Positions 1-47,769 of a DNA stretch of 47,769 nt are shown in pieces. A model generated the notes under the pieces. It searched no databases and was not told where the DNA came from. It saw only the letters and a list, made by a program, of their open reading frames with translations. The first letter of the stretch is position 1; each line of letters opens with the position of its first letter. The translations under genes were made by a program, and so were the position numbers. The stretch is taken from IMG/VR virus record IMGVR_UViG_3300031552_000008, positions 1 through 47,769 of that record; one strand, written 5' to 3'. Source of the DNA: a virus.

Positions 1-94
1 CACCAATCACGTCCAGACACAGACACCCCTCCAGATGCGGATGTCTCCTCGCCAACTCTTTCGGATCCTTCACTTTCATTGTAATCGTCTCCAT
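1..94 (-). CDS. 5' fragment of the Cys-containing protein (duplicate of 47458-47736)
   Basis: The ATG at 94-92 opens the same reading frame as the complete gene at 47458-47736. It runs off the left edge after 31 codons. The upstream sequence has a GGGGA-type ribosome binding site and an A/C-rich stretch that resembles the leaders of other genes in this arm. It is not a second gene, only the repeated end of the assembly. Confidence 0.85.
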   Translation of the reverse strand, partial: METITMKVKDPKELARRHPHLEGCLCLDVIG

Positions 95-127
95 TTGTCT
101 TCCCCTTTCATTCCCGTTCTTGGTTTA
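2..127. repeat. Left copy of terminal direct repeat
   Basis: These 126 bases are identical to positions 47644-47769 at the other end of the window; the base before each copy differs (C at 1, T at 47643). The repeat carries the start of one minus-strand gene (ATG at 94-92) and the stop of the next (TAA at 127-125). Gene order reads sensibly across the join: the gene ending at 125 is followed 31 bases later by the ATG at 94. A repeat near 127 bases is what an assembler with that k-mer leaves on a circular contig, so it is more likely assembly overlap than a physical terminal repeat. Confidence 0.9.
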
Positions 128-6188: not shown

Positions 6189-6489
6189 ACCCGGTGTTAC
6201 CTTGGTAGGATTACAACTCCCAATGAGAAAGGTGTTGTTGGAGGCAAACCGTATCTGGTCCGAATTGGGGCAGGAGTTGGTTATTACCTCCGGACTCGAT
6301 GGCACTCATTCCCCAGGCTCCATGCACTACTACGGGTATGCATTGGATATGAGGACCCGGGATTTTGCGGACAATGGCCGGGAGGCCTGTTCCCGCCTCC
6401 GCTCTGCCCTATCTCCTGCCTATTTTGTCCAGTTGGAGTCCAACCACATTCACGTTTCCTACCAGTTTGAATATACGGAAAGGAGATAA
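6178..6489 (+). CDS. M15-family peptidoglycan peptidase (endolysin)
   Basis: This 103-residue protein carries the zinc-peptidase signature SMHYYGYALD (residues 48-57: H50 and D57 as zinc ligands) and a second HxH near the end (H90, H92), as in the VanY/L-Ala-D-Glu peptidase M15 group. The length matches compact phage M15 lysins. It probably cuts the peptide cross-bridges of peptidoglycan, either at lysis or, because it sits among packaging genes, as part of the virion. It has no signal peptide, so access to the wall would depend on the holin at 32654. Start ATG 6178 overlaps the previous gene; its stop abuts the terminase start. Confidence 0.88.
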   Translation: MKIKPGVTLVGLQLPMRKVLLEANRIWSELGQELVITSGLDGTHSPGSMHYYGYALDMRTRDFADNGREACSRLRSALSPAYFVQLESNHIHVSYQFEYTERR

Positions 6490-19668: not shown

Positions 19669-20709
19669 ATGGCTGGTGAGGGAGCGATAGCATTACTCGG
19701 AATGCAGCAGCAGGGTAAGCAACAGGGCATGCAAGCCATGCAGGCCTTTGCCGAAAAGATGAGATTGCAGAGCCTTATGCAAAAATTTGCCCAGGCCAAC
19801 GTTTCATCTCCTGAAGACTTTAAGTCCTTTGTTGCTGAGAATGGGGTAAATCCACAAGAGGCTCAGGGATTACTTCAAATTATGTCCTCGTCCAGGGCAG
19901 CATTTAAGCCCGATGTACCCCCCAACATATATTCTTCCTCGCCGCAGGGAATATACAACCAGCAAACAGGGGCCGTCGTTTCCCCTACAGCACCAAAACC
20001 AACTGTACAATATGGATCTGCCGGAAATTCAGTCTACAACAAATTTACCGGCGATGTGGTACACGAGAAGTTTACTCCTGTTGATTACTATAAGGTAAAC
20101 GATGACGGGTCTGTGGTATCCAGAAAGGCAAACAATGCATTGGAGGCAAAAAAGTTTGAGAATCTTGGGTTTGAACGAGGCTCTTACCGTGATAAGGCTC
20201 TCGGTTCTCCCACTCCCTCTTCCACCACCAAACCCATAAAGACATGGGTGCTTCCGGAGGTGGACGAGGATGGTAATCAGCGTACTCCCGAACAGCGCCT
20301 TTGGCATGCCCCTTCTGATCGTACTCCCCCTGCTGGTGCCAAGCCCTATTCGGAAGCTGGGGAACTGGAAAAGCGATTGCTTACCTCTCAGGAATTGATC
20401 AGTATTCGGTCGGACAAAAAGTCCGTGAGGAGGGAGTTGGACAAAGCGATTTCGCTCCCCGAAAACATTTCTATTTACAAGCCCTATAAGGACAGGATTC
20501 CCGCACTGAGGGCAGAACTGAAGGATTTAACGGAGCGGGAGCAGGCGATTCTTTCTGGTGGTAATGACCTGAATCCCCCCTCCTCTTCCTCCCCTCCATC
20601 CCCCCAGATAACGGAGGAGATGAAGACAAAGTATATAGAACTTCGCAACCAGGGAATGACCCCAACTGCTGCTACGGCAGAGGTGATGAAAATGGGAAAT
20701 GGTGGATAA
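19669..20709 (+). CDS. Probable internal virion protein, 346 aa
   Basis: ATG 19669 follows TTAGGAGG. The N-terminal 60 residues are Gln/Met-rich helix (MQQQGKQQGMQAMQAFAEKMRLQSLMQKFAQANV). A Pro/Ser-rich linker and a charged helical C-terminal region (KKSVRRELDKAISLPEN, later ITEEMKTKYIELRNQGMTP) follow. Residue composition is like that of internal core proteins of podoviruses. Its stop overlaps the start of the giant gene by 11 bases. Confidence 0.6.
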   Translation: MAGEGAIALLGMQQQGKQQGMQAMQAFAEKMRLQSLMQKFAQANVSSPEDFKSFVAENGVNPQEAQGLLQIMSSSRAAFKPDVPPNIYSSSPQGIYNQQTGAVVSPTAPKPTVQYGSAGNSVYNKFTGDVVHEKFTPVDYYKVNDDGSVVSRKANNALEAKKFENLGFERGSYRDKALGSPTPSSTTKPIKTWVLPEVDEDGNQRTPEQRLWHAPSDRTPPAGAKPYSEAGELEKRLLTSQELISIRSDKKSVRRELDKAISLPENISIYKPYKDRIPALRAELKDLTEREQAILSGGNDLNPPSSSSPPSPQITEEMKTKYIELRNQGMTPTAATAEVMKMGNGG

Positions 20710-23700: not shown

Positions 23701-25039
23701 GGTAGCAGAGTTACACAAATCCCTGGATCCATCGTTACGGGAATACAATAAGTGGTATGTAAGGAGGTACTTGGGGTGGGATAAAAACAAACTGGATGAT
23801 TTGGCAGGTGCTATTTCCAGCTTTCAGTGGATGAGGACTCTGGGGCTAAATCCACGATCTGCCGTAGTTAACCTTACACAAAGGATAAATACCATAGCCG
23901 ATGCGGGGCTGAAATTTTCATTGCGGGCACAGAAGGAAGCATTTACAAAGGAGGGACAAGAGGCCTTTGATGCAACCGGGTTGGCAAGGGAAATACCACA
24001 AGTACTGATGGAGGGACCTGCCCCTGCCGGTATGGAAAAGGTAAGGGCAATAGTGGGATACTTGTTCAATAAGGTGGAATTGGGGAACAGGAAACACGCA
24101 TTTCTGGCAGGTAGAGCAAAAGCACTAGCCTCTGGTTCATCTCCCGAAGCAGCAGTTCAGGCAGGTATAGATTTGGTACATAAAACCCAATTCCGGTATG
24201 GAAAAGTTGGTATGCCAAAAGCCCTTTCCCATCCTGTTGGTCGTATTGGATTGCAGTTCTGGTCCTATCCCATAAAGCAAACGGAATTAATAGTAGATTG
24301 GGCAAAGAATGATCCAAAGAAACTAATTGCCTATGTTGCAATGGCGGAAGGTGGAAAGGTAGCACTACAAAAGTTCCTGAACGTGGACCTCTCCTCTGCG
24401 CTTGGATTTGGAGTAAATATTGGACAGGCAATAAAGGCGATAAGGGATGTGCCGGATGAGGATTGGAGGGGTTTCTTCCGTCATCTGAAGGTTGCTGCGT
24501 CAGAAGGGGGAGGACTGTTACCGTCTGGCCTTGGTCCTACTGCTTCTGGTCTCCTAAAGGTTATAGAGGGGGCACAGAAGGGGGTGGGGATGCAGGCTCT
24601 GGGTAAGGAACTGACACCAATTTTGGTTGATAGAACGGTTCAGGCGTACAAGGCCGTTATCAAGAGGAACAACAAAAACATGTACCCGATGTATAGCAAG
24701 AATGGGGACTTGATGTACTATCTAACCGGCAAACAACTCCTAATGCGATCCGTGGGACCAAAATCATACACAGAGACGGAGAAGTATACGGGGTGGAAAG
24801 AGGACCAGCTTTTGGATCAGGACTTGAAATCCATACTCCGCGATACGACAAGGGCTATAGTGGATGGGGACAACAAAAAAGCAAACATGCTAATCAACAA
24901 ATACGGGGTAATACCATCGGAGCAGGGGATAGCTAACGAGGTACTTAGAAGAGAGTTGCCCTACGAGGAGAGGCGTGTTATCAATAAAACAAGAAGACAA
25001 GAAGAATTTGAATCCATGATGGAAGGAGAAAATAGATGA
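20699..25039 (+). CDS. Giant ejection/core-type protein, 1446 aa
   Basis: This is the longest gene of the window and the last of the ejection series. N-terminal helices (residues 1-250) are Ala/Pro-rich. Residues about 374-480 form a distinct, A+T-rich insert (GNLYVGNKGDVHATLFDKAG, then NERYNDFLSG). A Pro-rich linker follows. The C-terminal half (about 740-1446) is charged and helical (ANRKVSDYLPHIFDRESILLE; NPRSAVVNLTQRINTIADAG; GRIGLQFWSYPIKQTELIVDW). That C-terminal pattern is like the large polyvalent-type proteins that phages inject with their DNA. No catalytic motif is convincing. Start ATG 20699 is favoured, with ATG 20711 possible. Arginine codons switch from CGN to AGR in blocks. Confidence 0.75.
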   Translation: MVDKMGMEEELEREYQAASLESGFQDQLEKEYKASQPEPKPEPGPLSRIGQSMKEGAIQTAKDVGVIASNPWSIAEATTSLLTKTPAFAAGSLRSIQEGAKTLVAGGDLEDVWDNMVSGFHDYFSKTEDIIPSYDPSDVKGAEAAAKIYMTPFLASQALSEDIATPLEKEHPNLAAATRMAGVVAGFAAQGGLHQAMKPGSAKPTFPRDLLDSDVPLDTTYAKKLVADRTNMEKVNVPGRPLARLSNIEKSLAADRETVPGPRVRQAAETFEKSDPYQTMTPAEKSAWAMENQFNENVTPQAREGLLDRMGKLNYNKQLEQLAERMEKERLVREQAKSLGEEVGPKTPTRDLPENRKPVYGEFPTDDVLKVAAKDPEGNLYVGNKGDVHATLFDKAGLLDSKYNYTDMKDGWVNKNGNFLTQKQAQDYLKKQTGIEDKFGVNAERYNDFLSGKEDSYFSLSDEQRKVRRNNLLNLNQDIVLEPKPKVAPAPVRKAPSGEMEVKGFLVPESTLRSMDKRRAADIFRDINTSLGSRGSVSGSLTPEQAAARARLVKDLDAIKRNAARTGKTVKDYMIDLGTDPAVVDSLLGSKPSMPITTPQQVADSHNLIYNGMQEFPPEMNYPPLFMWTDKATGSTFTSKSLEPVEVKTKLQNMQAKFGGDQPSGPTAKPPRSRPDLVAPDSSVTLEQLVADAQRQLAESQAAEGKGHPISVPSPAPVAPIESVVSSMESSPASTSFLGKLVRTKEGLSEALNSPEVVYRRDKSGVGNEIYRTLDHSDQRGNAFLWEQGEEFSGAIKGVKEGGKSDLKIGQALDGKISRSDLSLSERKSYDFFRGKFDYLLDRFIQNSASSDAQYKKIIRYAGKPEAADKKWVASLTGPDKFAWELANRKVSDYLPHIFDRESILLEFKNERALLSSKLRTAVDPGKRARYERRIAKIDSAINTMAGGDLVRYDALPTSLRMRFFEPRKGKEGYNLSAIRAYRAYLNGIKRKIYDEPAVRRVAELHKSLDPSLREYNKWYVRRYLGWDKNKLDDLAGAISSFQWMRTLGLNPRSAVVNLTQRINTIADAGLKFSLRAQKEAFTKEGQEAFDATGLAREIPQVLMEGPAPAGMEKVRAIVGYLFNKVELGNRKHAFLAGRAKALASGSSPEAAVQAGIDLVHKTQFRYGKVGMPKALSHPVGRIGLQFWSYPIKQTELIVDWAKNDPKKLIAYVAMAEGGKVALQKFLNVDLSSALGFGVNIGQAIKAIRDVPDEDWRGFFRHLKVAASEGGGLLPSGLGPTASGLLKVIEGAQKGVGMQALGKELTPILVDRTVQAYKAVIKRNNKNMYPMYSKNGDLMYYLTGKQLLMRSVGPKSYTETEKYTGWKEDQLLDQDLKSILRDTTRAIVDGDNKKANMLINKYGVIPSEQGIANEVLRRELPYEERRVINKTRRQEEFESMMEGENR

Positions 25040-33261: not shown

Positions 33262-35919
33262 TCATTCGGGATTGTACTTTTTTGTCGTTCCCCAATTCTC
33301 CCCCCCGACTTTCATATCCACCACCAACGGAACTTTCATCTTTCCCCCATCCGCGCTTTCCATTATCCTCTTTTGTTCCTTCAGCACTTCTTTGTAGGAT
33401 CTCTTGTCCTGTTCCGATACTAGATCGTCATGGATCTGGATCAGGGGCACTGTTCTCCTTTTCTTTATCCTTCTCCAGTACACATAGAGCGGTTGAAGGT
33501 TCGCCATTGCCCTCTTCATTACTCCTGCCGCCCCTGACTGTATCGGCGCATTCCCCGCCTGTCTTAATCCTCTTTCTCTTTTCCATTTACTCTTTGTCTT
33601 TGCCCAGGGTACCCACCGAATCCTTCCCCACATATCTACCACTTTGCCGTGTTGCGCTGCATAGTTCCGATTGTTGTCCATGTAGGTTTTTACTCCGGGG
33701 TAGACACTGAACCAAGTATCAATAAGTTCTTGGCATCGATCCACTGGCCAATCTTCCTCATTCGCTCCCCCAACTACCAATTCCCTCTGTAGCCCATGAG
33801 CGGAAATGTCATTCAGGACACCAAAACCAACGCGTTTTGCCGGATATCGATGTTTCATAGAATCCAATCTCGATTCCGGAATCCCGAACATCTCGGAGGC
33901 GGTTTTGGAGTGAATATCCTCACCGCGATGGAAGATGGAACACATACGGCGGTCACCGGATTCGGAGGCGGTAATTCTTAGTTCTACTTGGGAGTAGTCA
34001 GCACAGGAAATAACACAACCATCAGCCGGAATAAACCCTTCCCTTACCCTACGTCCCTCAACGGTTCGAACGGGAATGGCCATCAAGGGGGGATCTTTCA
34101 TGGAAAGTCGTCCGGTTGCGGTACGGGTAACACGAACCGTTGCCCGAATCCGTCCGTCTTCATCTATCATACGGGGCAACTTTTCTACATATGATGTCTT
34201 CAGTTTGCTAAACGCTCTGTATTCTCTTATCCACTTCACCACGGGATGTTTGTCCTCAATTCGGGACAGAACGGCATCCTGCGTCATAGTGGTTGATTTT
34301 CCCTTTGCCATACGAGGATCAACAAATTCGTCCAATCCCAAATCCCCGTAAAGTAGTTCCGATACCTGAAGGGCCGAATCCGGATTAATAGTTTTTCCTG
34401 TGATCCCCGTAATTATAGCTGCGACCTCATTCAATTTCAGGTCAAATACCCCCCTTAGCTCTTCGAACTTGGCTGGATCTACCCTTATTCCAAACCTCAT
34501 CATATCCGCCACCATGGGCATTACCCTCATATCAGTCATGAAGACATCCCACATCCCCTCCGCTATGATACGGTCGCGGAGATACGGCCAGATTTGGTGC
34601 GTGCAATTCGAATCGTCACAGGCGTAGCGGAGAGTAACCTCTGGCGGAGCATCGGAGAGATCTCCGTCCCAGAGTCTACCAATATTGTGTTCAATGAGGG
34701 TGATGTCAGATCTGCCTTTATCTTTTCTAATCTTTTCCCACCGTTGGAAAGGATCAACGTCCTTGGCTGCAACATCCCGGATAATATTGCTCACCAGCCT
34801 ACTTATATTCTGCGGTTTCCTTACATGGGCTTCCCCCTTTTTCCATTCCAGTACTTCTTCCGGATCTGGCCACTCGTACTCCAGTAGCTCATTTAGGTAG
34901 GTTAGCGCTTTCTTGAACCTGTATGGTCTCACCACCTCCGTGTACTCCCCCATCTCTGCCCCGATTATCCTCCATGCCAAATCCTTGAGACCCTGTGGCT
35001 CGGATTGCAGAAGGTAGGCGGCGACCATACTGTCCCGCAGTTTCTCGGTTGGTATTTCCACTCCCATTTGGTACAGAACCGGAAGATCGTAGGCAGCGTT
35101 GTGGATAATAACCTCATCACACTGATCGGAGTTAACCCAGGAGTTCAATTGTTCCAGGTTGTTGCTGTCGTTGGCGTGAATTAGCAACGCGGTGCCAGCC
35201 TCATAGGTATTAGTGGTGCAGAAGGGCCGTCCCTCCGCCCATTCCGTATCGATCGCTATACTACGGGGAGTGTGGGATAGGCTATACTTTCCGCCATGAG
35301 TCAGATTCAGTAGGGGGTCCCAATATCGTCCCTCAACCGGACGAATGGAGGAAAAGCTAATAGGAGGCAGGAGGCGATCTAGGACAGGGCGAATGGTGGA
35401 AAATCCGTAAACCACTTTCACCATATCATCCATATTGCGAAGACCCCAAGACGGGTGAAAGATGGGAATGACCGTTCCCCAATCCGTTTTGAATGGAATC
35501 CCGTTTACCCTTTCCATTGTAACTTCTTCACCAAGAAAGAATCGGGTGGAGAATCGACCCAGAGCTATGATCACCTCTGGCTCTATTTCATCCAACTCTT
35601 GCAACAGAACATACCGGCAAGCATCTATTTGACATTGTGTTGGATTTGCATCATCGGGAGGATGACACTTTAGCATATTGGTCCAGTATACCATGGAGGT
35701 AGGATTTACGCGACTGATTAATGCTAGGTGCCTTGCCTCCGTACCCGCTGCCCCTACCCAGGGACGCCCCTCCTTATCCTCATTGAAACCGGGTGCCTCC
35801 CCCACAACCATCACTCTCGCTCTCTCTGCTCCTCTTCCCCACACTATCCTGGACCTTGTTTCCGATAGTTCGCACCTCTTGCAATTTGCATCCCCCATCA
35901 CTCGCACGATATCCACCAT
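33262..35919 (-). CDS. Uracil-DNA glycosylase/DNA polymerase I fusion
   Basis: The 885-residue protein starts at ATG 35919 behind GGAGGAGG. Residues 1 to about 180 are a family 4-type uracil-DNA glycosylase: CxxC (13, 16), GEAPGFNEDKEGRPWVGAAG, and later Cys residues completing an iron-sulphur site. Then comes a 3'-5' exonuclease with D224-x-E226, NAAYD (D278) and YACDD (about 432-436), so proofreading looks intact. The polymerase has motif A DYSQVELR (D641), motif B K695-R-V-G-F699-G-V-L-N703-D, and motif C IHDD (830-832). In motif B the template-stacking Tyr (Taq 671) is Asn703, and in motif C the usual Glu is Asp. It is the probable replicative polymerase and would have to use Z if the DNA is modified. 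The start was chosen because upstream codons make an untypical Pro/Gly tail. Confidence 0.93.
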   Translation of the reverse strand: MVDIVRVMGDANCKRCELSETRSRIVWGRGAERARVMVVGEAPGFNEDKEGRPWVGAAGTEARHLALISRVNPTSMVYWTNMLKCHPPDDANPTQCQIDACRYVLLQELDEIEPEVIIALGRFSTRFFLGEEVTMERVNGIPFKTDWGTVIPIFHPSWGLRNMDDMVKVVYGFSTIRPVLDRLLPPISFSSIRPVEGRYWDPLLNLTHGGKYSLSHTPRSIAIDTEWAEGRPFCTTNTYEAGTALLIHANDSNNLEQLNSWVNSDQCDEVIIHNAAYDLPVLYQMGVEIPTEKLRDSMVAAYLLQSEPQGLKDLAWRIIGAEMGEYTEVVRPYRFKKALTYLNELLEYEWPDPEEVLEWKKGEAHVRKPQNISRLVSNIIRDVAAKDVDPFQRWEKIRKDKGRSDITLIEHNIGRLWDGDLSDAPPEVTLRYACDDSNCTHQIWPYLRDRIIAEGMWDVFMTDMRVMPMVADMMRFGIRVDPAKFEELRGVFDLKLNEVAAIITGITGKTINPDSALQVSELLYGDLGLDEFVDPRMAKGKSTTMTQDAVLSRIEDKHPVVKWIREYRAFSKLKTSYVEKLPRMIDEDGRIRATVRVTRTATGRLSMKDPPLMAIPVRTVEGRRVREGFIPADGCVISCADYSQVELRITASESGDRRMCSIFHRGEDIHSKTASEMFGIPESRLDSMKHRYPAKRVGFGVLNDISAHGLQRELVVGGANEEDWPVDRCQELIDTWFSVYPGVKTYMDNNRNYAAQHGKVVDMWGRIRWVPWAKTKSKWKRERGLRQAGNAPIQSGAAGVMKRAMANLQPLYVYWRRIKKRRTVPLIQIHDDLVSEQDKRSYKEVLKEQKRIMESADGGKMKVPLVVDMKVGGENWGTTKKYNPE

Positions 35920-36181
35920 AACCCCTCCTCCAGGCATTTAATCTTTCTGCTGCAAACTTGGCCAACAATTTGAGTACCGGAATCAGGACGGAGGCAATTT
36001 TCTCTCCTTTGTCCACCGTCCTGTGTTCCTGGTGCGATCCTATCCTGTTCATTTCCACATCAAAGACTGTGATCTCTGCTACAATATGAAAACGGTCAAA
36101 GTAGGCAGGATTGGAACCGTCCACCTGTCTGATATTTTGGGCCACATTGATAGAATGTTTGGGCCAATCGGAAAGGCTCAC
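35780..36181 (-). CDS. Unknown protein, 133 aa, overlapping the polymerase
   Basis: The frame starts at GTG 36181, which overlaps the TGA of the upstream gene (GTGA), and is well organised for its first 90 residues (strands and a helix: YFDRFHIVAEITVFDVEMNRI; KIASVLIPVLKLLAKFAAERL). The last 140 bases run through the start of the polymerase in another frame and read as Arg/Gly-rich. Either the gene really overlaps, or it was once shorter or is frameshifted. No family recognised. Confidence 0.5.
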   Translation of the reverse strand: MSLSDWPKHSINVAQNIRQVDGSNPAYFDRFHIVAEITVFDVEMNRIGSHQEHRTVDKGEKIASVLIPVLKLLAKFAAERLNAWRRGYGGYRASDGGCKLQEVRTIGNKVQDSVGKRSRESESDGCGGGTRFQ

Positions 36182-36591
36182 AGTCTCACCTCCTCCCACA
36201 CTATTGGTACCCCCGCTGTGTCCGCCATTTCTATTTCCCCCTTCGATCCCGTGCTCTCGTCCAGCCATTTGTTCTTCACCACCGCTGCCAAGTCACACTT
36301 ACAGAGAAGGACAAGGTGACCGGCCATTATACGGTGATCATCCAGGTCCCCATCAAAGGCTCCCCCATTCAGGTGCGGACAGATTACCGCCCATCCATCC
36401 TCCCAATACTTCCTTGCCAACTTCCTTGCCATCAGAATGTTCAGTTCCTGCTGAATTTTGTTCTTGTGTCTGAGTGCCCCAATTATGAAAACGGTAGGTT
36501 GTCTGCCGCTTCGTTTCCCCTCCAGCAATATGTGCCGAATCCCGTCTTTGTCCTTGTCACTTACCCAATCTAACATCGCTCCTTGTGTCAT
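36178..36591 (-). CDS. Nucleoside deoxyribosyltransferase-like (DUF4406-like) protein
   Basis: ATG 36591 follows AAGGAG at good spacing; ATG 36600 is too close. The 137-residue protein has the pattern TVFIIGALR, then LARKYWEDGWAVICPHLNGG, then KNKWLDESTGSKGEIEMADTAGVPIVW. This is the layout of the nucleoside 2-deoxyribosyltransferase superfold, with the 'S.G...E...A....iP' site around the catalytic Glu. It could act in nucleotide metabolism, but no substrate can be read from the sequence. It is coupled to 35780-36181. Confidence 0.75.
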   Translation of the reverse strand: MTQGAMLDWVSDKDKDGIRHILLEGKRSGRQPTVFIIGALRHKNKIQQELNILMARKLARKYWEDGWAVICPHLNGGAFDGDLDDHRIMAGHLVLLCKCDLAAVVKNKWLDESTGSKGEIEMADTAGVPIVWEEVRL

Positions 36592-36605
36592 TGTATTCAT
36601 CTCCT

Positions 36606-37343
36606 TTACCCCCTTGTCCTTAATTGTCGGTAAATTCCCTCCGCTATTGTTTGTCCCACTCCCTCCACTTCCATTATATCAGTCACCGATGCCGCCATCA
36701 ATTCCATCATGGAACCAAAATGGTGGGCGATATCCAGAGCCTTCCTCCCTCCAATACCATCCATCCCAACCAGCATCCGAGCCAGGGTCTTTGGTCTTTT
36801 GAATCCTGGTGCTGCAGGAACCGGATTAACCATCATCGTTTCCGCCGTCCTATGTTTCTTTTTGTTATACCACCTGTGTATGTGGTCTATCCATGATGCA
36901 GTATTGAGGAGATTCGGGGTGAACAGAGTAGGAACGCCAAACAGTTCTCGGACCGAAATTAGGAAGGAGTGTACTTCTTTGCTTCCATACACTCTCTTCC
37001 CATATCGCAACGGCCTGAATCCCTTTCCTTGCCAGATCTCCAGTTCCCCCTTCTTGTTCGTTTGCCATAACCCCTCTATTACAAGGTAGGAACGATCGTA
37101 TTCTTCCCCCATACCCGGCAATTGGTGCGCCACCAGCCTTCCGCTTTCCATGGAGGATATCAGATCCCGTATCCGCTTCCTCTCGATGCCGACCATCACA
37201 TCGCGGGGGTCGGATTCGCCTGGGAGCGTGGTGTGGCCCACTACGACGGCGTCTCCGTAGTCTAGATCGCATACGGAATGGGGGGTGAGCAAGTGCGGAT
37301 GGAGTTCAATGCTACCGACGCGACGATCGAGTAGGAGAGTCAT
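36606..37343 (-). CDS. ERCC4-type nuclease with helix-hairpin-helix
   Basis: The 245-residue protein contains the ERCC4/XPF nuclease signature GIERKRIRD (residues 52-60) after acidic residues near 29, and ends with two helix-hairpin-helix units (LVGMDGIGGRKALDIAHHFG; SVTDIMEVEGVGQTIAEGIY). This is the build of XPF/Mus81-type structure-specific nucleases, which cut branched DNA. Its neighbours suggest a recombination or resolution role. ATG 37343 overlaps the upstream stop (ATGA). Confidence 0.88.
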   Translation of the reverse strand: MTLLLDRRVGSIELHPHLLTPHSVCDLDYGDAVVVGHTTLPGESDPRDVMVGIERKRIRDLISSMESGRLVAHQLPGMGEEYDRSYLVIEGLWQTNKKGELEIWQGKGFRPLRYGKRVYGSKEVHSFLISVRELFGVPTLFTPNLLNTASWIDHIHRWYNKKKHRTAETMMVNPVPAAPGFKRPKTLARMLVGMDGIGGRKALDIAHHFGSMMELMAASVTDIMEVEGVGQTIAEGIYRQLRTRG

Positions 37344-38060: not shown

Positions 38061-38834
38061 CTATTTCCAGTCTTCTGGATCGTTTCCCATCACCATGCTG
38101 GCAATCCAGGGAAAGCTGATCATCCCCTCCCCCGTTTCCCTATCCGTCTCCAGTACTTCCCCTTCCAGATTTGGATCCTGTGTGCATTTGTCTATCTTGC
38201 AGTAGAAGTTGTCCTTGTCTTTGGTTAGTTCCACCGCCACCTGGACGAGGTATCCCATTTCCTTAAACCCGGCTCGTATCCGCTTTCCGGTAGGGATCGC
38301 CATCGCATCCTTCTTCTTTGGATTTGTATTTATGTACTCGTCCTTCCGTTTGTGAATCAGGATCAGATTCTTGTTGTTGCGCTTGGCGTGGCGAATTAGG
38401 GTACGGAACTCCGCATTAACAGGGCCATAATGGTGAGGTTTCACGTTGTTGATTTTTCCGAATCTCGCCAGACGTACCATTTCCCAGAACTCGGTTCCGG
38501 TATCGAAGACTATGGAGCGAACGACGGAATCAGGGGCGGCAAGACAGGCCTTATACGCTTTTATCATCGCCTCCGTTTTCTTCTCCGCTTCATCGTCCCC
38601 ACCCTCAAGCAGATAGCCGACTTGGTAATGTCGAAATTCACCCTTCTTGAAATTGAACTTTTCCACAATCGGGTCGACGTTATCATCTATATCGAAGAAG
38701 GCAATGGGACGGGGGGCGGTAAGGGAAAGATGTGTCTTGCCACAGCCCTCATCCGCATCAACAGTCATAATAATACGTGGAGTAGCAACAGGAACATCGT
38801 CACCAAAGCCGAGTTTGGTTAGTTGATCAGCCAT
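38061..38834 (-). CDS. Sak4-like RecA-fold ATPase
   Basis: Start is ATG 38834; a TTG three bases upstream gives the alternative. Residues about 27-34 are the Walker A DADEGCGKT, and a Walker B strand SIVFDTGTEFW lies near residue 110. The pattern AAA_24/RecA-like, small size (257 aa) and position next to an exonuclease and an SSB-like gene fit Sak4-type phage recombinases, which anneal or pair strands with help of SSB. It has no zinc finger or N-terminal extension. Confidence 0.8.
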   Translation of the reverse strand: MADQLTKLGFGDDVPVATPRIIMTVDADEGCGKTHLSLTAPRPIAFFDIDDNVDPIVEKFNFKKGEFRHYQVGYLLEGGDDEAEKKTEAMIKAYKACLAAPDSVVRSIVFDTGTEFWEMVRLARFGKINNVKPHHYGPVNAEFRTLIRHAKRNNKNLILIHKRKDEYINTNPKKKDAMAIPTGKRIRAGFKEMGYLVQVAVELTKDKDNFYCKIDKCTQDPNLEGEVLETDRETGEGMISFPWIASMVMGNDPEDWK

Positions 38835-38844
38835 CAATACCCCC

Positions 38845-38913
38845 TTATCTGTTTCTTATGGTGACGGCAAATATAATCACCAGTACGATTAGCCATAGTG
38901 TTTCCTTGTCCAT
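38845..38913 (-). CDS. 22-aa membrane micropeptide
   Basis: The ATG overlaps the stop of the nuclease gene (TAATG, 38915-38911), with GGAGG just before. The product MDKETLWLIVLVIIFAVTIR plus two residues is almost only one hydrophobic helix with a charged start and end. Good ribosome binding and the coupled start support translation. Function unknown. Confidence 0.5.
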   Translation of the reverse strand: MDKETLWLIVLVIIFAVTIRNR

Positions 38914-39473
38914 TATTCCTCCAACATCCCTTCGTTAATGGCAAACTGCCGAATATAGGCCCAGTTCTCGTCTATTTCCTTCTGTGTAAACTCCAGTCGA
39001 TAGGTGAAGTACTGAGGACCGCTCCCCTTATAATCACCAACAACGTATATGATGCGAACGACGGTGACCCGAGTGCCCAGCATTTTGCAGTAGGACTTGA
39101 ATTGGGTGATGTAGTACCAGTTGGACTCGATCGGATTGTTGCTGGACTTCCAGGTAAGCTTGTATTCCTCATTGACGAAGTCTACCTCTCCCCAGGGATC
39201 GTCTCCAACCCCGTCCGGGGAACCAACAATCCCGTCCACAATTATCTCATTTGGCCGGATCCCAAGCTTATCCTTGTATGCCATCTCCAGCGCCCGTTCC
39301 CAGATAAAACCACAATCAGGGGTAAGGTTCATATTCCACTTTACCCCTGTGTAGTCAGTCTGGTCCATGCGCTTGATAATGTCAGTGAGGTGGAGGACTC
39401 CGGTGCCAACGGTCCTGTTCGTTTCGTCAGGAAACCGGCTATATTCTTCTTCTATTAAATCTACTCTCGCCAT
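38913..39473 (-). CDS. RecB/Cas4-like PD-(D/E)XK exonuclease
   Basis: The 186-residue protein has GFIWERALE (E59), then D80, acidic residues near 87-98, E103-Y-K105 in a strand, and QFKSY (residues 124-128), matching the RecB/Cas4 nuclease series E, D, ExK, QxxxY. This is the phage recombination or end-processing exonuclease type. It precedes the Sak4-like ATPase in one operon, so the two probably act as a recombination pair. ATG 39473 follows GGAGG; its start overlaps the 40-aa gene 39439-39561. Confidence 0.85.
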   Translation of the reverse strand: MARVDLIEEEYSRFPDETNRTVGTGVLHLTDIIKRMDQTDYTGVKWNMNLTPDCGFIWERALEMAYKDKLGIRPNEIIVDGIVGSPDGVGDDPWGEVDFVNEEYKLTWKSSNNPIESNWYYITQFKSYCKMLGTRVTVVRIIYVVGDYKGSGPQYFTYRLEFTQKEIDENWAYIRQFAINEGMLEE

Positions 39474-39563: not shown

Positions 39564-39935
39564 TCAGCTCCACTTTCCATCTTTCTTTATGGATACTATC
39601 CCCACATCACCCTCTTTTCCGACGTCAATACCAACAGTACTGCTGGGAGAATCCGGGATCGGAACTTGGTCCGAGGTGACATAGGACCCAGGATTGTTCA
39701 GGTCCACGATGTGCCCACACGGCCTCCACCCTTCCCCGCTCTTGTTCTTCACCGCCCCCATACAACAGAAGACCGGATGCTGGACGAACTCCTCCTTGCC
39801 GGTCGGGCTAATCAATGCCGACATCTTCCTCATACGAACTGCAGGCTGGAAGAATACGGAGCCACAGTCAGGGCACAATAGGTCAGGGATGGAAGAGATA
39901 TCGATCCCCCTTCTCATCTTTTTATTTTTTCCCAT
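39564..39935 (-). CDS. Zinc-ribbon-like protein, 123 aa
   Basis: ATG 39935 follows AAAGGAGG and lies inside the end of the MazG-family gene. Residues about 20-25 hold CPDCG; later CC and a C-G-H (residues about 57-75: FCCMGAVKNKSGEGWRPCGH) could complete a zinc site. The C-terminal 40 residues are flexible (PIPDSPSSTVGIDVG) and end in KKDGKWS. No named family. Confidence 0.65.
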   Translation of the reverse strand: MGKNKKMRRGIDISSIPDLLCPDCGSVFFQPAVRMRKMSALISPTGKEEFVQHPVFCCMGAVKNKSGEGWRPCGHIVDLNNPGSYVTSDQVPIPDSPSSTVGIDVGKEGDVGIVSIKKDGKWS

Positions 39936-40449
39936 CTTTTTTCCTCCTTTTCCTCTCCTTTAGTATTTTCTTCCTTTTTTCCTTTACCTTTACCATGTTC
40001 ATTGCCAAAATTTGGCGAATGTCGGGGTAACCGGCTTCGGCAGCGGTGCGGGTCAGATAAAACTGCACATCACCCAATTCCTCAGCCAGAGCGCCTGTAT
40101 CCATTCCCAGGGCCGCTGTATCGATCGCGTTCAGTGCCTCAACCACCGCAGCATTATCCCTAAGCTCCTTTTTCATCGCATTGGAAACCTCACCCGCCTC
40201 CCCAATAAGACCGAGGATACAATAGAGGAGACCAACAAGGCCCCGGTTCTTGCCGGGGTAGATGGCTGCCTCGTCCACAGCACGGGAGTAATTGAGGGTG
40301 GAGGCGCGAGCGGTGATATAGGAGGCACAGTCAAGCAGGACGGACTCCACCACACACTGATTACATACCATACCCGGAGAACAACTGCACTCTCCTGGCA
40401 TTACATTCAGCGCCAGTTCTATCCTTTTTAGCATTTCCGCTTCTTTCAT
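39922..40449 (-). CDS. MazG-family nucleotide pyrophosphohydrolase (MazZ-like)
   Basis: ATG 40449 follows GGAAAGGA and overlaps the upstream stop (ATGA). The 175-residue protein has the MazG core: LGLIGEAGEVSNAMKKEL with E84 and E87 as an ExxE motif, and LAEELGDVQFYLTRTA with E124 and D127 as ExxD, the metal site of all-alpha NTP pyrophosphohydrolases. In Z phages the MazG-type MazZ cleaves dGTP to dGMP, the substrate of PurZ. Here the two are encoded in the same phage, on opposite strands. Substrate is inferred. The N-terminal 60 residues include four Cys (CSC, C, C), unusual for MazG. Confidence 0.82.
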   Translation of the reverse strand: MKEAEMLKRIELALNVMPGECSCSPGMVCNQCVVESVLLDCASYITARASTLNYSRAVDEAAIYPGKNRGLVGLLYCILGLIGEAGEVSNAMKKELRDNAAVVEALNAIDTAALGMDTGALAEELGDVQFYLTRTAAEAGYPDIRQILAMNMVKVKEKRKKILKERKRRKKDGKK

Positions 40450-40858: not shown

Positions 40859-41692
40859 TCAAATGGTCAGTTTGCCATCCGCATAATTCCATGGTTTATC
40901 ATCGGACAGCCACGCGTCCTTGCCAATCAGATTGGAGATCTTGGCCCGGTCCTTGTTCCCCTTCAGTGTCTTAAAAGCGGCACCGATAAGAGCGGCCTTG
41001 GTCATGGACCCGTCATTTTCGGCAAGAAGCGTCATCACGGTTTCGGCTGCAGCGTCGTCGATATCTCCTCCACCTTCACCGCCACCCGCAGGTTTGGTTT
41101 TGGTGTCAGCCTTGGTTTCCTTCGACTTCCCTGCCACCTTTCCCTTTCCCTTACCTCCTTTCTTGCCCGTTTCCTCTTCATCCCAGGGCATTTTGAGGAT
41201 TGCAGTGATGACCGGCACTTCCCTGTTTTTCTTTTCCTTCTTGCCGGTCTTCCGGTCCTTCATATTGGTTTCGACTTCGACCCGATCCACATGGGCGATC
41301 AACCCTTCCAGATCTCCCGCCTCCCCCGTCCATTTGTCCTGGGGAAATCCCTGGAGTGAAGCGGAGGAGATCAGCATACCGAAGTTGGAGCTGGAGTTGA
41401 CACCCTTGGCCTTCCCGACGTTGATCAGGTATTGGCCTTCATCCGCCTCTTCTTCCCCATCCTCGCTGGGTTTCAGATCCTTGTGCCCCACCGACCACAT
41501 TTGGGTCACCTCCTCCTCCGTTTCCTGGTCAATCAGGTCGGCGGAGAAGACAGTGACTTCCTCATCGGATGCCCCGTTGTAATCGGTGATTTCGAATTTG
41601 CAGTTCTTGAACATCACATCGGCGTCATCAATCAGCCCGCCACCCTCGGTCAAGTTTTCTGCTCCCCATGCCACTTTACCTTTTTCTGCCAT
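40859..41692 (-). CDS. SSB-like (OB-fold) protein, 277 aa
   Basis: ATG 41692 follows AAAGGAG with the leader AACCAACCAACAACC. Residues 1-170 are strand-rich with the opening GAENLTEGGGLIDDADVMFKNCKFEITDYNG; residues about 170-220 are a Lys/Gly-rich linker (GKKGGKGKGKVAGKSKETK); the C-terminus is a helical/acidic domain (AAAETVMTLLAENDGSMTKAALIGAAFKTLKG). Phages with a Sak4-like ATPase often encode an SSB, and the composition and operon place suit this. The call is by layout, not by a firm motif. Confidence 0.6.
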   Translation of the reverse strand: MAEKGKVAWGAENLTEGGGLIDDADVMFKNCKFEITDYNGASDEEVTVFSADLIDQETEEEVTQMWSVGHKDLKPSEDGEEEADEGQYLINVGKAKGVNSSSNFGMLISSASLQGFPQDKWTGEAGDLEGLIAHVDRVEVETNMKDRKTGKKEKKNREVPVITAILKMPWDEEETGKKGGKGKGKVAGKSKETKADTKTKPAGGGEGGGDIDDAAAETVMTLLAENDGSMTKAALIGAAFKTLKGNKDRAKISNLIGKDAWLSDDKPWNYADGKLTI

Positions 41693-41726: not shown

Positions 41727-41782
41727 TTGAGGGTCAGTACTCTACGTTTCCCCTAAGGGTACTCCTGATTCCCGGCCCTCAA
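41727..41782 (-). promoter_or_regulatory. Weak long inverted repeat before the SSB-like gene
   Basis: TTGAGGG (41727-41733) and CCCTCAA (41776-41782) are inverted copies that bracket the leader of the gene at 40859-41692 and overlap the stop of the helicase. The interior has imperfect pairing. It could modulate SSB-like expression; evidence is weak. Confidence 0.35.
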
Positions 41783-43401
41783 ACTGGTCTCGGTTTCGGC
41801 ACATCTTCTTTCATTGGCGTTGATCTCTTTTTCACCCTTACCGTCCGGAAGCTATCCTGAAACCACTTTGGCGCAAACGATTTGTACTTCCTGATAAACC
41901 ATTCTATATTGTTGTCGATGATAAAATTCTCACACCAATCCTCTTTATTCCTCACCCCCCTTCCACACGTCTGAATCAGTCTTTGCATTGCGATATATGG
42001 TGCATAATCCCTATCCATCTGCATCCGTCTTTTTATTATAGGGTCACTGGTATCCGGATAGGCGATCTTGCCAATAATTTGGTACCTTATCTCATCATCA
42101 GGGAAGTCGTATCCTGTCGTCATTACAGGGGAAACAAAAATAGCGGGGGGAGAGGATGACTTGAACCTTTCCACCGTCTCAATTGTGTTGCGGGAATTGT
42201 GTCCTATCATGAATTGGGTATAGTCACTACTTTCCATTATCAGCTTTTGTCTCTTGTAGGATACAGAATGGATGATCCCTTTCCTATCCAATCTATCTTC
42301 CAGAATCTGATCTATCCTCGCCAACCACTTCAGCATTTCCATATCGGTTGTTCGGTAATTTAGTCCTATGGTGTGGATGTAGTTCAGGATTCGGTTCTCC
42401 AATGGAAAGGGGTGATCCACTTCCACCACATCCACATCTTTCTGGTCTATTCCCAGAAGTCCTATGGTTTTTGGTGTAACGGTAGCGGATGTGAGGATCA
42501 CTTTTTCTATTCCCTTAAACAATGTAGATTCGGTGTAGTGGTAGGGCCAAACAACAGAGGAGGTGATTCGATTACCGGATTTATACACTATCATGTTTTC
42601 CGGATCTTCTTCTATCCCGTGATTGATAAAGCTGGTAGATTCCCATAATCGTTGTAGAAAGTGGGCAAGGTCCAGTGTTTCCTTCCCGTAGTCCCCTTCC
42701 TCCTTTATTCTCCAGCTTACATCTTCGTATTGGGAAGATACGGTTTTGTGCCAGTGCCTGATCCACTCCTTTATTCCCGACTTTGACTTCGGAAAGGATT
42801 CCACAATTTCATCCTTTATCCCCTTCCCCTCTCTACTTCCTATTATTTCCTTGGTCAGGAATGAGGATAGGATCTCTGGCAATTCATGTGCTTCATCACA
42901 GATTAGAGTGGAGAACTGGAAGGTGTAATCGTCTCCGTACCCCCAATCCCCTCGGTTCATCCAATAGGCATAGTTGGTGGAGATTATGGGGGCTGCCATC
43001 GCTTTCTTTACCTGATCATAGTATAGGCAACCGTCCTTGACGAAGGGACATCTCATTCCCCAATTGCATGGCCCCTTCCCGCAGGTCGAATACCCCCCCA
43101 ACATTTTGCACGGGTAGTTGTCCTTACCCCTTAGGTCCACTACCACCCCTTCGTGCTCATTTTTTAGTTGGTCCTGCAATGCTCGGGTAGAGGTGAGGAT
43201 TACCGCCCTGGATCCCCCATTGATTAGAGCGGAGACAATATACATGAGGGATTTGCCAAAGCCAGTAGGGCAAACGGGCATAATTAATCGATGTTCTGAA
43301 TCCACCACATGCTGAACCACCATATCCTGGTTCTGTCTCCAGGAATCGAACCGGGAATCAACACCGAATGAATAGGGTGGGGGTAATAGGTCCGCCATCA
43401 T
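41779..43401 (-). CDS. DinG/XPD-type DNA helicase with iron-sulphur cysteines
   Basis: The 540-residue protein has Walker A PTGFGKS (residues 45-51), a five-Cys stretch (C98, C107, C112, C118, C125) where the XPD/DinG [4Fe-4S] domain sits, and the DEAH box at 169-172. Motifs V and VI (TTGYDFPDDE, QTCGRGVRNKED) end the second lobe. It is a 5'-3' helicase by family and probably serves replication or recombination. The tandem ATG ATG start follows GGAGGA; the second ATG (43398) has better spacing. Confidence 0.88.
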   Translation of the reverse strand: MMADLLPPPYSFGVDSRFDSWRQNQDMVVQHVVDSEHRLIMPVCPTGFGKSLMYIVSALINGGSRAVILTSTRALQDQLKNEHEGVVVDLRGKDNYPCKMLGGYSTCGKGPCNWGMRCPFVKDGCLYYDQVKKAMAAPIISTNYAYWMNRGDWGYGDDYTFQFSTLICDEAHELPEILSSFLTKEIIGSREGKGIKDEIVESFPKSKSGIKEWIRHWHKTVSSQYEDVSWRIKEEGDYGKETLDLAHFLQRLWESTSFINHGIEEDPENMIVYKSGNRITSSVVWPYHYTESTLFKGIEKVILTSATVTPKTIGLLGIDQKDVDVVEVDHPFPLENRILNYIHTIGLNYRTTDMEMLKWLARIDQILEDRLDRKGIIHSVSYKRQKLIMESSDYTQFMIGHNSRNTIETVERFKSSSPPAIFVSPVMTTGYDFPDDEIRYQIIGKIAYPDTSDPIIKRRMQMDRDYAPYIAMQRLIQTCGRGVRNKEDWCENFIIDNNIEWFIRKYKSFAPKWFQDSFRTVRVKKRSTPMKEDVPKPRPV

Positions 43402-43408
43402 TCCTCCT

Positions 43409-43945
43409 TTATACCAGATCCGGAAATCTTTTCTTGAATTCTTTTCTGTATCCCGTCTTCCACGGTCCCTCCGGCATCTTCTCTATCAATTCCTTCACTC
43501 TATCCACCATCTGCTTCGCTACTTCCATGCTTCCCTCTCTCCTGTGATACCTTACTCTTTCCTCCAATTGTCCTATGGATAGCATGAATTGTTGGTGGTT
43601 TTCGTCGTCCCTTGCGATTTCGGAAATAGCATCAATTACGAAGATGTTGTTAACTCCGATGTAACCCAAGTCCGTAAGCCAGCGCAAGTGCCGAATTAGT
43701 GCATGGCGATAGAGGTCGGAATCTGTACGGTACGGGAATTGCTTTGTCTGTATTGCCTCCCCTACCATTGCCCTCATTTGCTTCAGTCCCCGAAATTGGA
43801 ACCTTGTCGAATGCCCCTGGGAATCGGAGGTTGGAACGTGGAAGTCCTCTGGATCTATTTTCCTTATATCATCGTCAGGAATAAGATCACCGAATTGTAT
43901 TACTTTCGCGCCCTTGTTGGTGCCCCCCACTTTGCTCTTTTCCAT
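43409..43945 (-). CDS. Unknown protein, 178 aa
   Basis: ATG 43945 follows an AAAGG site. The first 60 residues are polar; from residue 70 it is helical (RGLKQMRAMVGEAIQTKQFPY; LYRHALIRHLRWLTDLGY; EISEIARDDENHQQFMLSIGQLEERVRYHRREGSMEVAKQMVDRVKELI). No known motif. It directly precedes the helicase and may assist it. Confidence 0.7.
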   Translation of the reverse strand: MEKSKVGGTNKGAKVIQFGDLIPDDDIRKIDPEDFHVPTSDSQGHSTRFQFRGLKQMRAMVGEAIQTKQFPYRTDSDLYRHALIRHLRWLTDLGYIGVNNIFVIDAISEIARDDENHQQFMLSIGQLEERVRYHRREGSMEVAKQMVDRVKELIEKMPEGPWKTGYRKEFKKRFPDLV

Positions 43946-45180: not shown

Positions 45181-45359
45181 TTGTGAAGGGGGTAGGTACC
45201 AGGGACCGGGTCCCGTTGTCTCCTTGTCTCCTGTCTCCGTGTATAACGGGCCGTGACCCCGGTTCCCCCGTTGTCCCGTGTCTCCGTGTATGACGTGTCA
45301 CACCGTATGACGTGTTATGCCCCCCCAAGACGGAAGAAAAAAAGAAAAAAGGAGGAAGT
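45181..45359. promoter_or_regulatory. Repeat-rich control region before the purZ gene pair
   Basis: This 179-base gap holds a palindrome GGGACCGGGTCCC (45202-45214), two near-identical 25-base direct repeats (45224-45248 and 45271-45295; 22 of 25 matches), a TGACGTGTCA half-site pair (45291-45300), a further GTATGACGTGT (45305-45315), and the ACGGGCCGTGACC motif (45246-45258). No clear promoter with 17-base spacing is present. It looks like binding sites for a regulator, or a set of tandem operators. Confidence 0.6.
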
Positions 45360-45659
45360 ATGAGTCACAAAAACAACCGGTACTTTAATTACAAGGAGAA
45401 GGAGAAGAAGGGAGAGTACATCAACCCCGATCGTCCGGCGTGGGTAGACGCTATGGTGAAGGAGGCGGATAAATTTAGCCGTGATATGGATTTGCAGAGG
45501 TCCATGCTGGATGGGAAGGTACCCCACCTCACGCGCAAGGAAAGAAAAAGGTTCGCTGGGAGGATAAAGAGGATGGAAAAGTCCCTCAGTAAAAAAAGCA
45601 AAGAGAGTGGGGTAGGAAAAGTGGCAAGAGAAATACAGAGGTTAACGGAAATCTATTAG
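45360..45659 (+). CDS. Basic protein, 99 aa
   Basis: ATG 45360 follows AAAGGAGGAA; the frame upstream is only Lys/Pro filler. The product is strongly basic (KKKG, TRKERKRFAGRIKRMEKSLSKKSKESG) and helical, so it may bind nucleic acid. It lies 15 bases before purZ in the same operon. No family recognised. Confidence 0.7.
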   Translation: MSHKNNRYFNYKEKEKKGEYINPDRPAWVDAMVKEADKFSRDMDLQRSMLDGKVPHLTRKERKRFAGRIKRMEKSLSKKSKESGVGKVAREIQRLTEIY

Positions 45660-45674
45660 GAAAGGGGAACAACA

Positions 45675-46781
45675 ATGAAAAGAGGAAAATGGAATGTAGT
45701 AATTGGAGGGCAGGCGGGATCAGAGTCGAAAGGGAAGTGCGCCTGCTATCTGGTGCACAAGTACGGGGAGCTGGAGGATGGGATAGAGGCCGTTTCCATG
45801 ACTGCTTCCCCCAATGCCGGTCACACTTATGTCTCCGACTCTGGCAAGAAAATGGTTAGCTATCACCTCCCCATTTCCGGTGTGGTCAATCTGTCCCTGA
45901 ATCGGCGTGCCATTATCGTCCTTGGTCCTGCCTCTCTCATCAACCCCACAATTCTCGCTAAGGAGATCCATGATTTGGGGGTGGACCCGGACCGAGTCTT
46001 CCTTGACCCTCGTGCCTCTATCATTACCACCGAGTGCCTGGAGTCCGAATGCCTTTCCTCCCTCTCCGATATCGGTTCCACGCTGCAGGGGGTAGGGGAG
46101 GCAAGGATGAGGAAGATGATGAGGGGGCACAAAGGGAGAACGGTTCAGGCAAAGGATTCCTCAGCCATTCACCTTCTTGGTCTTCGCCTTCGTCACACAG
46201 ATGAGGTTCTCTATAACCTCCTCCACACCGAACATACCATACTGCACGAAATGACGCAGGGATTCGACCTCGACCTGGAGCACGGCATTTCCCCTCTCCA
46301 CTGTACATCCAAGATGATAAACACGGCGATGGGTATGGCGGAGATGGGGGTTGCCCCGGCCTTCCTTGGTGATGTGTGGGGGGTGATCCGCCCGTATCCG
46401 ATCCGTGTTAGCAATCGGACGGGCTACTCGGGAGGGTACGAGGAAGCCGAGGAAATATCATGGGACACGATCGCGACTCGTGCGGGGGTGCCGGATGGGG
46501 TCAAGATTGCGGAAATAACGACCACAACCAAGCTGCCCAGGAGGGTGTTCGAGTTCTCGTGGGAAAGGTTCATGAAATTCGTGAGGGTGTGTGGGCCAAC
46601 GAGGCTGTGTCTGCAGTTCGGGAACTACCTGGACTGGGAGATCGCGGGGGAGAAGGAGGGTTTATTTTTGGCGTATCCAAAGGTGGGGAACTTCGTGTTG
46701 GAACTGGAAAAGAGGTCCGGTGTCCCGGTTTCCCTAGTGGGCACCGGACCCAAAAATTGCGAGATGATAGAACCTTCCTGA
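45675..46781 (+). CDS. purZ: PurZ: (deoxy)adenylosuccinate-synthetase-like enzyme for 2-aminoadenine
   Basis: The 368-residue protein is a PurA homologue. The nucleotide loop reads VVIGGQAGSESKGK (residues 8-21); PurA has WGDEGKGK, so the catalytic Asp is Ser16, the substitution that marks phage PurZ. NAGHT (47-51) with His50 and the GSTLQGVGEARMRK stretch (134-147) are conserved family motifs. PurZ joins aspartate to dGMP; host PurB then yields dZMP. It is shorter than host PurA (about 430 residues). The ribosome binding site is AAAGGGGAAC. It sits after a basic small gene in an operon with its own promoter. Confidence 0.92.
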   Translation: MKRGKWNVVIGGQAGSESKGKCACYLVHKYGELEDGIEAVSMTASPNAGHTYVSDSGKKMVSYHLPISGVVNLSLNRRAIIVLGPASLINPTILAKEIHDLGVDPDRVFLDPRASIITTECLESECLSSLSDIGSTLQGVGEARMRKMMRGHKGRTVQAKDSSAIHLLGLRLRHTDEVLYNLLHTEHTILHEMTQGFDLDLEHGISPLHCTSKMINTAMGMAEMGVAPAFLGDVWGVIRPYPIRVSNRTGYSGGYEEAEEISWDTIATRAGVPDGVKIAEITTTTKLPRRVFEFSWERFMKFVRVCGPTRLCLQFGNYLDWEIAGEKEGLFLAYPKVGNFVLELEKRSGVPVSLVGTGPKNCEMIEPS

Positions 46782-47480: not shown

Positions 47481-47736
47481 CTCCTTCCTTCTTTTCCCAT
47501 CCAAGTTCCGGGTTGCACACCCCGAAGTCCCCGTCCAAGGGTTCCAGTTCGTCCTTCCTCACCATCCAGGTGGCCCCGCATCCCGGCCCTTCCTTTCCCG
47601 GCGGTGTCAGGATTTTGTAATACCGGGGTCGATAGCGGCAGGTACCAATCACGTCCAGACACAGACACCCCTCCAGATGCGGATGTCTCCTCGCCAACTC
47701 TTTCGGATCCTTCACTTTCATTGTAATCGTCTCCAT
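47458..47736 (-). CDS. Cys-containing protein, 92 aa
   Basis: ATG 47736 has a GGGGA site and leader. It has cysteines at CLCLD, CRYRPRYY, GPGCGATW and VCNPE, enough for a metal site. The C-terminus EVVTSD is repeated in the neighbouring gene. Its first 31 codons reappear at 1-94 because of the terminal repeat. Function unknown. Confidence 0.7.
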   Translation of the reverse strand: METITMKVKDPKELARRHPHLEGCLCLDVIGTCRYRPRYYKILTPPGKEGPGCGATWMVRKDELEPLDGDFGVCNPELGWEKKEGEEVVTSD

Positions 47737-47769
47737 TTGTCTTCCCCTTTCATTCCCGTTCTTGGTTTA
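47644..47769. repeat. Right copy of terminal direct repeat
   Basis: This is the second copy of the 126-base repeat at 2-127. Collapsing the two copies gives a circle of about 47,643 bases. This copy holds the promoter-proximal part of the complete gene at 47458-47736. Confidence 0.9.

Follow-up and report, generated by a model that had tools for sequence, protein, structure and literature searches.

The DNA analysed here, the entire IMG/VR record IMGVR_UViG_3300031552_000008 of 47,769 nucleotides (referred to below as the window), encodes a protein that is strongly predicted from its residues and phylogeny to be an ATP-using PurZ, and neither a host PurA nor a PurZ0. It is likely that the phage makes dZTP and builds 2-aminoadenine (Z)-containing DNA through the combined action of PurZ, host enzymes, a set of nucleotide pool enzymes and a polymerase of UDG-exonuclease-family A type (UDG-exo-PolA). 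An exact direct repeat of 126 bp is present at the two ends of the record:

2..127, no strand: direct terminal repeat copy 1, an exact match to copy 2
47644..47769, no strand: direct terminal repeat copy 2, an exact match to copy 1

The repeat makes it very probable that the record is a complete genome, about 47.6 kb long, so that the absence of a gene from it is informative. Family matches identify a terminase, a portal and a major head protein, and no tRNA genes were found in the window. Most of the replication module is on the minus strand, and purZ is on the plus strand. A 1446-aa ORF at 20699-25039 has a short match to a DarB-like antirestriction family (PHROG 10089, E 3.6e-7), and a small protein encoded at 6178-6489, without a Pfam hit, has an HxxxxxxD...HxH pattern that resembles those of M15-type peptidases and is endolysin-like.

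The features in and next to the purZ gene are as follows:

45675..46781, plus strand: purZ, predicted ATP-type 2-amino-deoxyadenylosuccinate synthetase (PF00709, PHROG 1211, PDB matches, pocket residues, tree and AF2 model)
45720..45722, plus strand: Ser16 codon, TCA, at the PurA Asp13 position (alignments)
45312..45659, plus strand: small ORF directly upstream of purZ, with 47% identity to a homologue at the corresponding position of the nearest relative (L091/G010)

The purZ reading frame is open for 368 aa and its ATG start is preceded by a good ribosome-binding site (AGGAAAGGGG). Its product matches the adenylosuccinate synthetase family of Pfam (PF00709, E 5.5e-23) and, among the PHROGs, family 1211, annotated as '2-aminooxy adenylosuccinate synthetase' (E 1.2e-49). 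The best PDB sequence matches are to the PurZ proteins of phages phiVC8 (E 2e-32) and S-2L (E 6e-24), with an archaeal PurA (8e-22), PurZ0 (1.5e-16) and other PurA enzymes farther down. A first-pass annotation had proposed that Ser16 replaces the catalytic Asp of PurA, and alignment bears this out, with Ser16 falling opposite Asp13 of the Escherichia coli enzyme, the corresponding Ser of phiVC8 PurZ and Ser23 of S-2L PurZ. All intact members of the virus clade to which the window belongs carry Ser at this position, which is thus not a chance occurrence. The dGMP pocket of S-2L PurZ is formed by G22, S23, N49, A50, G130, S131, T132, R146, Q190, C204, T205, R240, V241 and R280, together with Y203 (PMC8342488), and when these positions were compared over 89 sequences the window protein was found to retain every one except Y203, where it has His. 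Its donor-base site carries Asn317, like Asn297 of phiVC8 PurZ, where PurZ0 and PurA have Asp, and ATP rather than GTP is therefore the predicted donor. The window's whole clade also has Gln (Gln314) where other PurZ proteins have Asn305 (S-2L numbering).

In a maximum-likelihood tree of PurZ and PurA proteins built under a mixture model, all of the Ser-type sequences fall into a single clade (100/100), whose sister is archaeal PurA (Pyrococcus horikoshii; P. horikoshii). The window lies inside the PurZ side of this clade (40 rows, support 100/99), within a virus clade supported at 100/100 in which it pairs with contig G010 (L091; 100/98); this virus clade is deep, well supported and so far met only in uncultured viruses. 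The phylogeny that had been suggested as a check on the annotation thus shows no grouping with host PurA, and the identification of the PurA-like ORF as PurZ is upheld by profile, tree and pocket residues alike. An AlphaFold (AF2) model of the protein (pLDDT 93.9) has the PurA/PurZ fold, and its top structural matches are P. horikoshii PurA, which comes first, and the PurZ proteins of S-2L and phiVC8; since these matches mix PurA and PurZ, structure alone does not discriminate between them, and it is sequence and tree that do so. The shared fold and the leading match to P. horikoshii PurA are what would be expected of a normal PurA supplying the phage with extra adenine nucleotides, but the change of the catalytic Asp to Ser, the well-supported placement on the PurZ side and the ATP-type donor site make such a role extremely improbable.

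Ser at this position is by itself no proof of a Z genome. A genome-wide scan revealed many PurA homologues on bacterial and archaeal chromosomes that share it, often in genomes that also encode a canonical PurA, although the scan pattern favoured Ser and its results therefore say nothing about the frequency of the Ser type. We accordingly rejected Ser as sole proof of PurZ: because the chromosomal homologues have it too, it is necessary but not sufficient for reading the window as a Z genome, and evidence from context was sought for this reason. Most of the chromosomal Ser-type proteins have Asp (the GTP type) at the donor site and lie elsewhere in the tree than the window protein; their Ser suggests a (d)GMP substrate. 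They include L126, L129, L130, L137, L150, L154, L155, L170, L177 and others, from Pseudomonadota, Myxococcota, Actinomycetota and other phyla, and many have N-terminal extensions or fusions. Several genomes that were checked encode a canonical PurA as well, and two from DPANN archaea (L124 and L132; Nanoarchaeota and Aenigmatarchaeota) have a Ser-type homologue only, with no match to canonical PurA in genomes that may be incomplete. Contigs from Clostridia MAGs (L106-L125), possibly prophages, carry purZ-like genes with the motif GSCGKGK that group with Bacillus phage vB_BpsS-140.

The occurrence of Ser-type homologues beside canonical PurA on chromosomes raises the question of whether the phage protein might have some other (d)GMP-related role, as the chromosomal ones may have, with no Z in the phage DNA. 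We regard this as very unlikely, given that the chromosomal proteins mostly have the Asp donor site and a different position in the tree, and that in the phage clade purZ is accompanied by a dATP/dGTP diphosphohydrolase and by an altered polymerase, both described below.

About 20 relatives of the window PurZ, with 42-56% identity to it, are encoded on viral contigs; a single-sequence scan of viral contigs gave no match, and these relatives came from alignment-based scans. The window and its relatives have in common a module that encodes a helicase, two conserved proteins, Sak4, an ERCC4 nuclease and UDG-exo-PolA. Apart from the polymerase, its components in the window, with the conserved gene at 43409..43945, are:

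36606..37343, minus strand: ERCC4-type nuclease with helix-hairpin-helix, shared module (PF02732)
38061..38837, minus strand: Sak4-like AAA ATPase, shared module (PF13479, PHROG 124)
38913..39473, minus strand: conserved shared-module protein, nuclease-like by eye (no family hit)
40859..41692, minus strand: conserved acidic-linker protein, shared module, SSB-like by eye (no family hit)
41779..43401, minus strand: DNA helicase, shared module (PF13307, PF00270, PHROG 2488)
43409..43945, minus strand: conserved gene found beside the purZ site of most PurZ-positive contigs, and also of the PurZ-less contigs G030 and G037

In G030 and G037 the same module continues as far as the site usually occupied by purZ, past which other genes follow. 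The purZ gene of contig G018 (L028, 10001-11530) is interrupted just before the conserved CTSK motif by an intein-like insert that starts with Cys and ends in Asn followed by Cys. In 14 of the relatives the next gene downstream of purZ encodes a PF18909 protein (dATP/dGTP diphosphohydrolase); in Z phages both dATP and dGTP are hydrolysed by domains of this type (DUF5664; PMC12884076). After purZ in G013 there is a short ORF with only a below-cut-off match to AAA_lid_12.

The polymerase of the module is represented by three features:

33262..35919, minus strand: UDG-exonuclease-family A DNA polymerase, proposed Z-DNA polymerase (PF03167, PF01612, PF00476; DNA_pol_A E 1.5e-94)
35431..35838, minus strand: UDG domain, family-4-like, N-terminal in the polymerase (PF03167 E 3.9e-22, alignments)
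33811..33813, minus strand: Asn codon, AAT, at the helix-O position (E. coli Pol I Tyr766/phiVC8 DpoZ Phe459; alignments)

The family A polymerase of the first-pass annotation is thus confirmed by its DNA_pol_A match. Its UDG domain keeps the GEAPG and HPS motifs and the four Cys residues of family 4 UDGs, which suggests an active glycosylase fused to a replicative polymerase. In phiVC8 DpoZ, Phe459 in helix O replaces an otherwise strictly conserved Tyr, and this Phe is the sole change common to both known DpoZ groups, although no single residue was found to be responsible for the preference for Z (PMC8599892). Phe459 shares an alignment column with Tyr766 of E. coli Pol I, and at this position every readable polymerase of the window's clade that adjoins purZ has Asn, whereas the UDG-PolAs of isolates without purZ have Tyr.

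The motif used in the first polymerase scan overlapped helix O, a possible source of bias, and the scan was therefore repeated with the UDG-exonuclease N-terminal half as the query, blind to helix O, and with the residue read only afterwards. The readable relatives found in this way comprise 50 with Tyr, 17 with Asn and 1 with Thr (the window and E. coli excluded). The contigs that carry these polymerase loci were then scanned for purZ, and among those of at least 25 kb an intact purZ was found in 11/11 with Asn or Thr and in 0/16 with Tyr, one of the latter having a degenerate copy. Fisher's test gives p values of 8e-8 if degenerate purZ is scored as absent and 9e-7 if it is scored as present, both of which overstate the case because the rows are related; on the polymerase tree all four independent contrasts (4/4) agree, a number with which a sign test cannot go below 0.125. 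Asn fragments shorter than 25 kb in which purZ was not detected (for example G024, G025, G028 and G113) are incomplete.

Two of the loci are instructive individually. The single Thr polymerase, in G112, accompanies a purZ that belongs to another lineage (GSEGKG, TFVNY). G090/G091 (L393/L392) combine a Tyr polymerase with a purZ remnant, located between the ERCC4 and PolA genes, that reads GHEGVGD for GSEAKGK and PEHS for NAGH and lacks the TTTTKLPRR loop. This pair appears to represent natural decay of purZ or its acquisition of a new function. Several UDG-PolA genes (L271, L266/L363, L355 and L337) have intein-like inserts, placed either at motif A or inside motif B. In a distinct group of PurZ phages, made up of marine-type viral contigs (L035-L069 and others), PolA has Thr at the Tyr766 position (LLTGAG).

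It is conceivable that the Asn or Thr of these polymerases is baggage of lineage and not an adaptation to Z, which would be compatible with a Z genome all the same. There are only four independent contrasts, and Tyr766 is kept in 15/60 non-control family A polymerases, most of them near a purZ but in other families, so that loss of the Tyr is not obligatory in Z phages. On the other hand, the same site has been changed to Phe in both DpoZ groups, to Thr in the marine PurZ group and in G112, and to Asn here, and the Tyr persists in viruses that lack purZ or have a broken one; we consider baggage the less probable explanation, but one with some claim to attention.

The pool enzymes of the window differ from those of most relatives, and two genes are candidates:

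39922..40449, minus strand: MazG-family nucleotide pyrophosphohydrolase (PF03819 E 1.1e-5; PHROG 229, MazG-like, E 1.7e-20)
36178..36600, minus strand: NDT-fold protein adjoining the polymerase, proposed dAMP-removing enzyme (DUF7768 E 6e-6, PHROG 355)

PF18909 is absent from the window and G010, which have instead a MazG-family gene elsewhere in the module; among the compared contigs these are the only two with such a gene, and the products are 48% identical. The MazG gene, 5 kb from purZ, had been put forward at the outset as a possible source of dGMP, and it is real by both its Pfam and PHROG matches, but it is not recognisable as MazZ. It has no PDB match and no detectable homology to MazZ (the MazG profile also missed S-2L MazZ), and its nearest isolate homologues are in Streptomyces, Gordonia and Mycobacterium phages; an identification as MazZ is thus unsupported. 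Searches of the window and 13 relatives for DatZ (PF12917) and for dUTPase (DutZ) gave no match, with positive results in five PurZ phages taken as controls for DatZ (phiVC8, S-2L, PSA28, Bm1 and Barton) and in four control phages for dUTPase.

A model of the 36178..36600 product (pLDDT 75.7) has an NDT/DNPH1/MilB fold (TM 0.5-0.6). Its S..G...E motif, with the catalytic Glu, is kept in 4/4 relatives, and the position of the catalytic Tyr (DmtZ Tyr6) is Phe in the window and Tyr in three relatives. The protein was also considered as a DmtZ, an assignment that is unsupported in view of this Phe at an essential Tyr and the lack of detectable close homology. The gene lies between those for ERCC4 and PolA in the window, G010, G013 and G020, and the same place in G012, G014, G018, G019, G024, G025 and G028 is occupied by a gene for a protein with an H..HD..H..D pattern; this family has no Pfam match and is putatively of HD type, judging by its conserved residues. 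One or other of the two kinds of gene adjoins PolA in PurZ-positive/Asn contigs, and 0 of the Tyr contigs among those compared have either.

These findings bear on whether replacement of A by Z would be complete. If dATP were not efficiently removed, PurZ could be active and the replacement only partial, with Z as one modification among normal A, and the lack of DatZ and of dUTPase/DutZ in a complete genome would fit this, as would an NDT protein without the catalytic Tyr. Against it, the polymerase change suggests selection favouring Z, MazG-type enzymes may hydrolyse dATP too, and S-2L PurZ takes dATP itself as energy donor and therefore also depletes it (PMC8342488). Partial replacement is in our estimation unlikely.

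The first-pass annotation had overlooked the UDG domain, the helix-O Asn, the adjoining NDT-like gene and the terminal repeat, but its interpretation is supported, on better evidence than it had. The preferred reading is that of a phage with a Z genome, and it is a strong one because PF18909 lies beside purZ in 14 relatives and because an intact purZ is associated with loss of the helix-O Tyr. The pathway would begin with hydrolysis of dGTP to dGMP by MazG, which might perhaps convert dATP to dNMP too. PurZ is strongly predicted to join dGMP and Asp, with ATP or dATP, to give 2-amino-deoxyadenylosuccinate, and host PurB and nucleotide kinases would then complete the route to dZTP, as they are known to do for phiVC8 and S-2L. 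The NDT-fold enzyme or MazG might possibly remove dATP or dAMP in place of the missing DatZ. Finally, UDG-exo-PolA, with its change of the helix-O Tyr to Asn, would prefer dZTP over dATP in copying, a preference that we infer from the association with intact purZ and from the Tyr-to-Phe change in both DpoZ groups. The whole would work like the pathways of phiVC8 and S-2L, with a PurZ of the known family, a polymerase that appears to lie outside the known DpoZ groups and pool enzymes that are apparently not DatZ or MazZ. The evidence inclines us, with some reserve, to see UDG-exo-PolA as a third, independent kind of Z polymerase, in which Tyr766 would have changed to Asn or Thr more than once and have been kept where there is no intact purZ, and which is accompanied by a different pool set (MazG or PF18909, and a protein that has the NDT fold or is putatively of HD type) instead of DatZ and MazZ.

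A partial literature search found no description of the window's PurZ clade or of a UDG-fused Z polymerase. With this clade the probable Z phages gain a deep lineage that is so far uncultured, and the gene content of the clade suggests that unrelated enzymes have once more taken over the dATP/dGTP pool step. Within the UDG-PolA family one helix-O residue separates viruses with an intact purZ from those without, and a single gene module offers matched Tyr and Asn polymerases together with one case of natural loss, so that a preference for Z over A is testable with two or three enzymes. If the reading is right, the family would supply naturally matched polymerases for A and for Z, told apart by a single residue that indicates which base is used.

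The PurZ proteins of phiVC8 and S-2L (PDB 6FM1, 7ODX) share with that of the window the Ser in place of Asp, the dGMP pocket, the fold, the side of the tree and an ATP-type donor site with Asn/Gln. The window protein differs from them in its level of identity (about 33%), its separate 100/100 clade and Gln314 instead of Asn305, and its gene lies outside any datZ-mazZ-purZ cluster. The PurZ0 proteins of phages Ghobes, Moki and Galactica (PDB 7VF6) likewise have Ser for Asp and an SE(A/G)KG loop, not STGKG, and pool enzymes of a related kind (PF18909, NDT fold) occur in the window's clade; the Asp (GTP-type) donor site and the dUTPase-like DutZ of the PurZ0 phages, however, are both absent from the window. 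These phages also provide the DmtZ/DutZ pair (PMC12884076), and DmtZ resembles the window NDT protein as an NDT-fold protein in a Z-type phage, although the essential Tyr of the Ghobes enzyme is Phe in the window, where there is no DutZ partner. The nearest isolate homologue of the window PurZ is the 'adenylosuccinate synthetase' of Bacillus phage vB_BpsS-140 (36-39%), which shares both key residues, Ser and Asn, but belongs to another phage and module, with adk and dut genes, and groups with the Clostridia MAG sequences. The polymerase resembles phiVC8 DpoZ and its VC8-like and Wayne-like groups in being a family A enzyme with a 3'-5' exonuclease and in having lost the helix-O Tyr, but it has an N-terminal UDG domain, Asn rather than Phe, and at most 28% identity over partial alignments, and it falls in neither group, being set apart from both by domain make-up and similarity.
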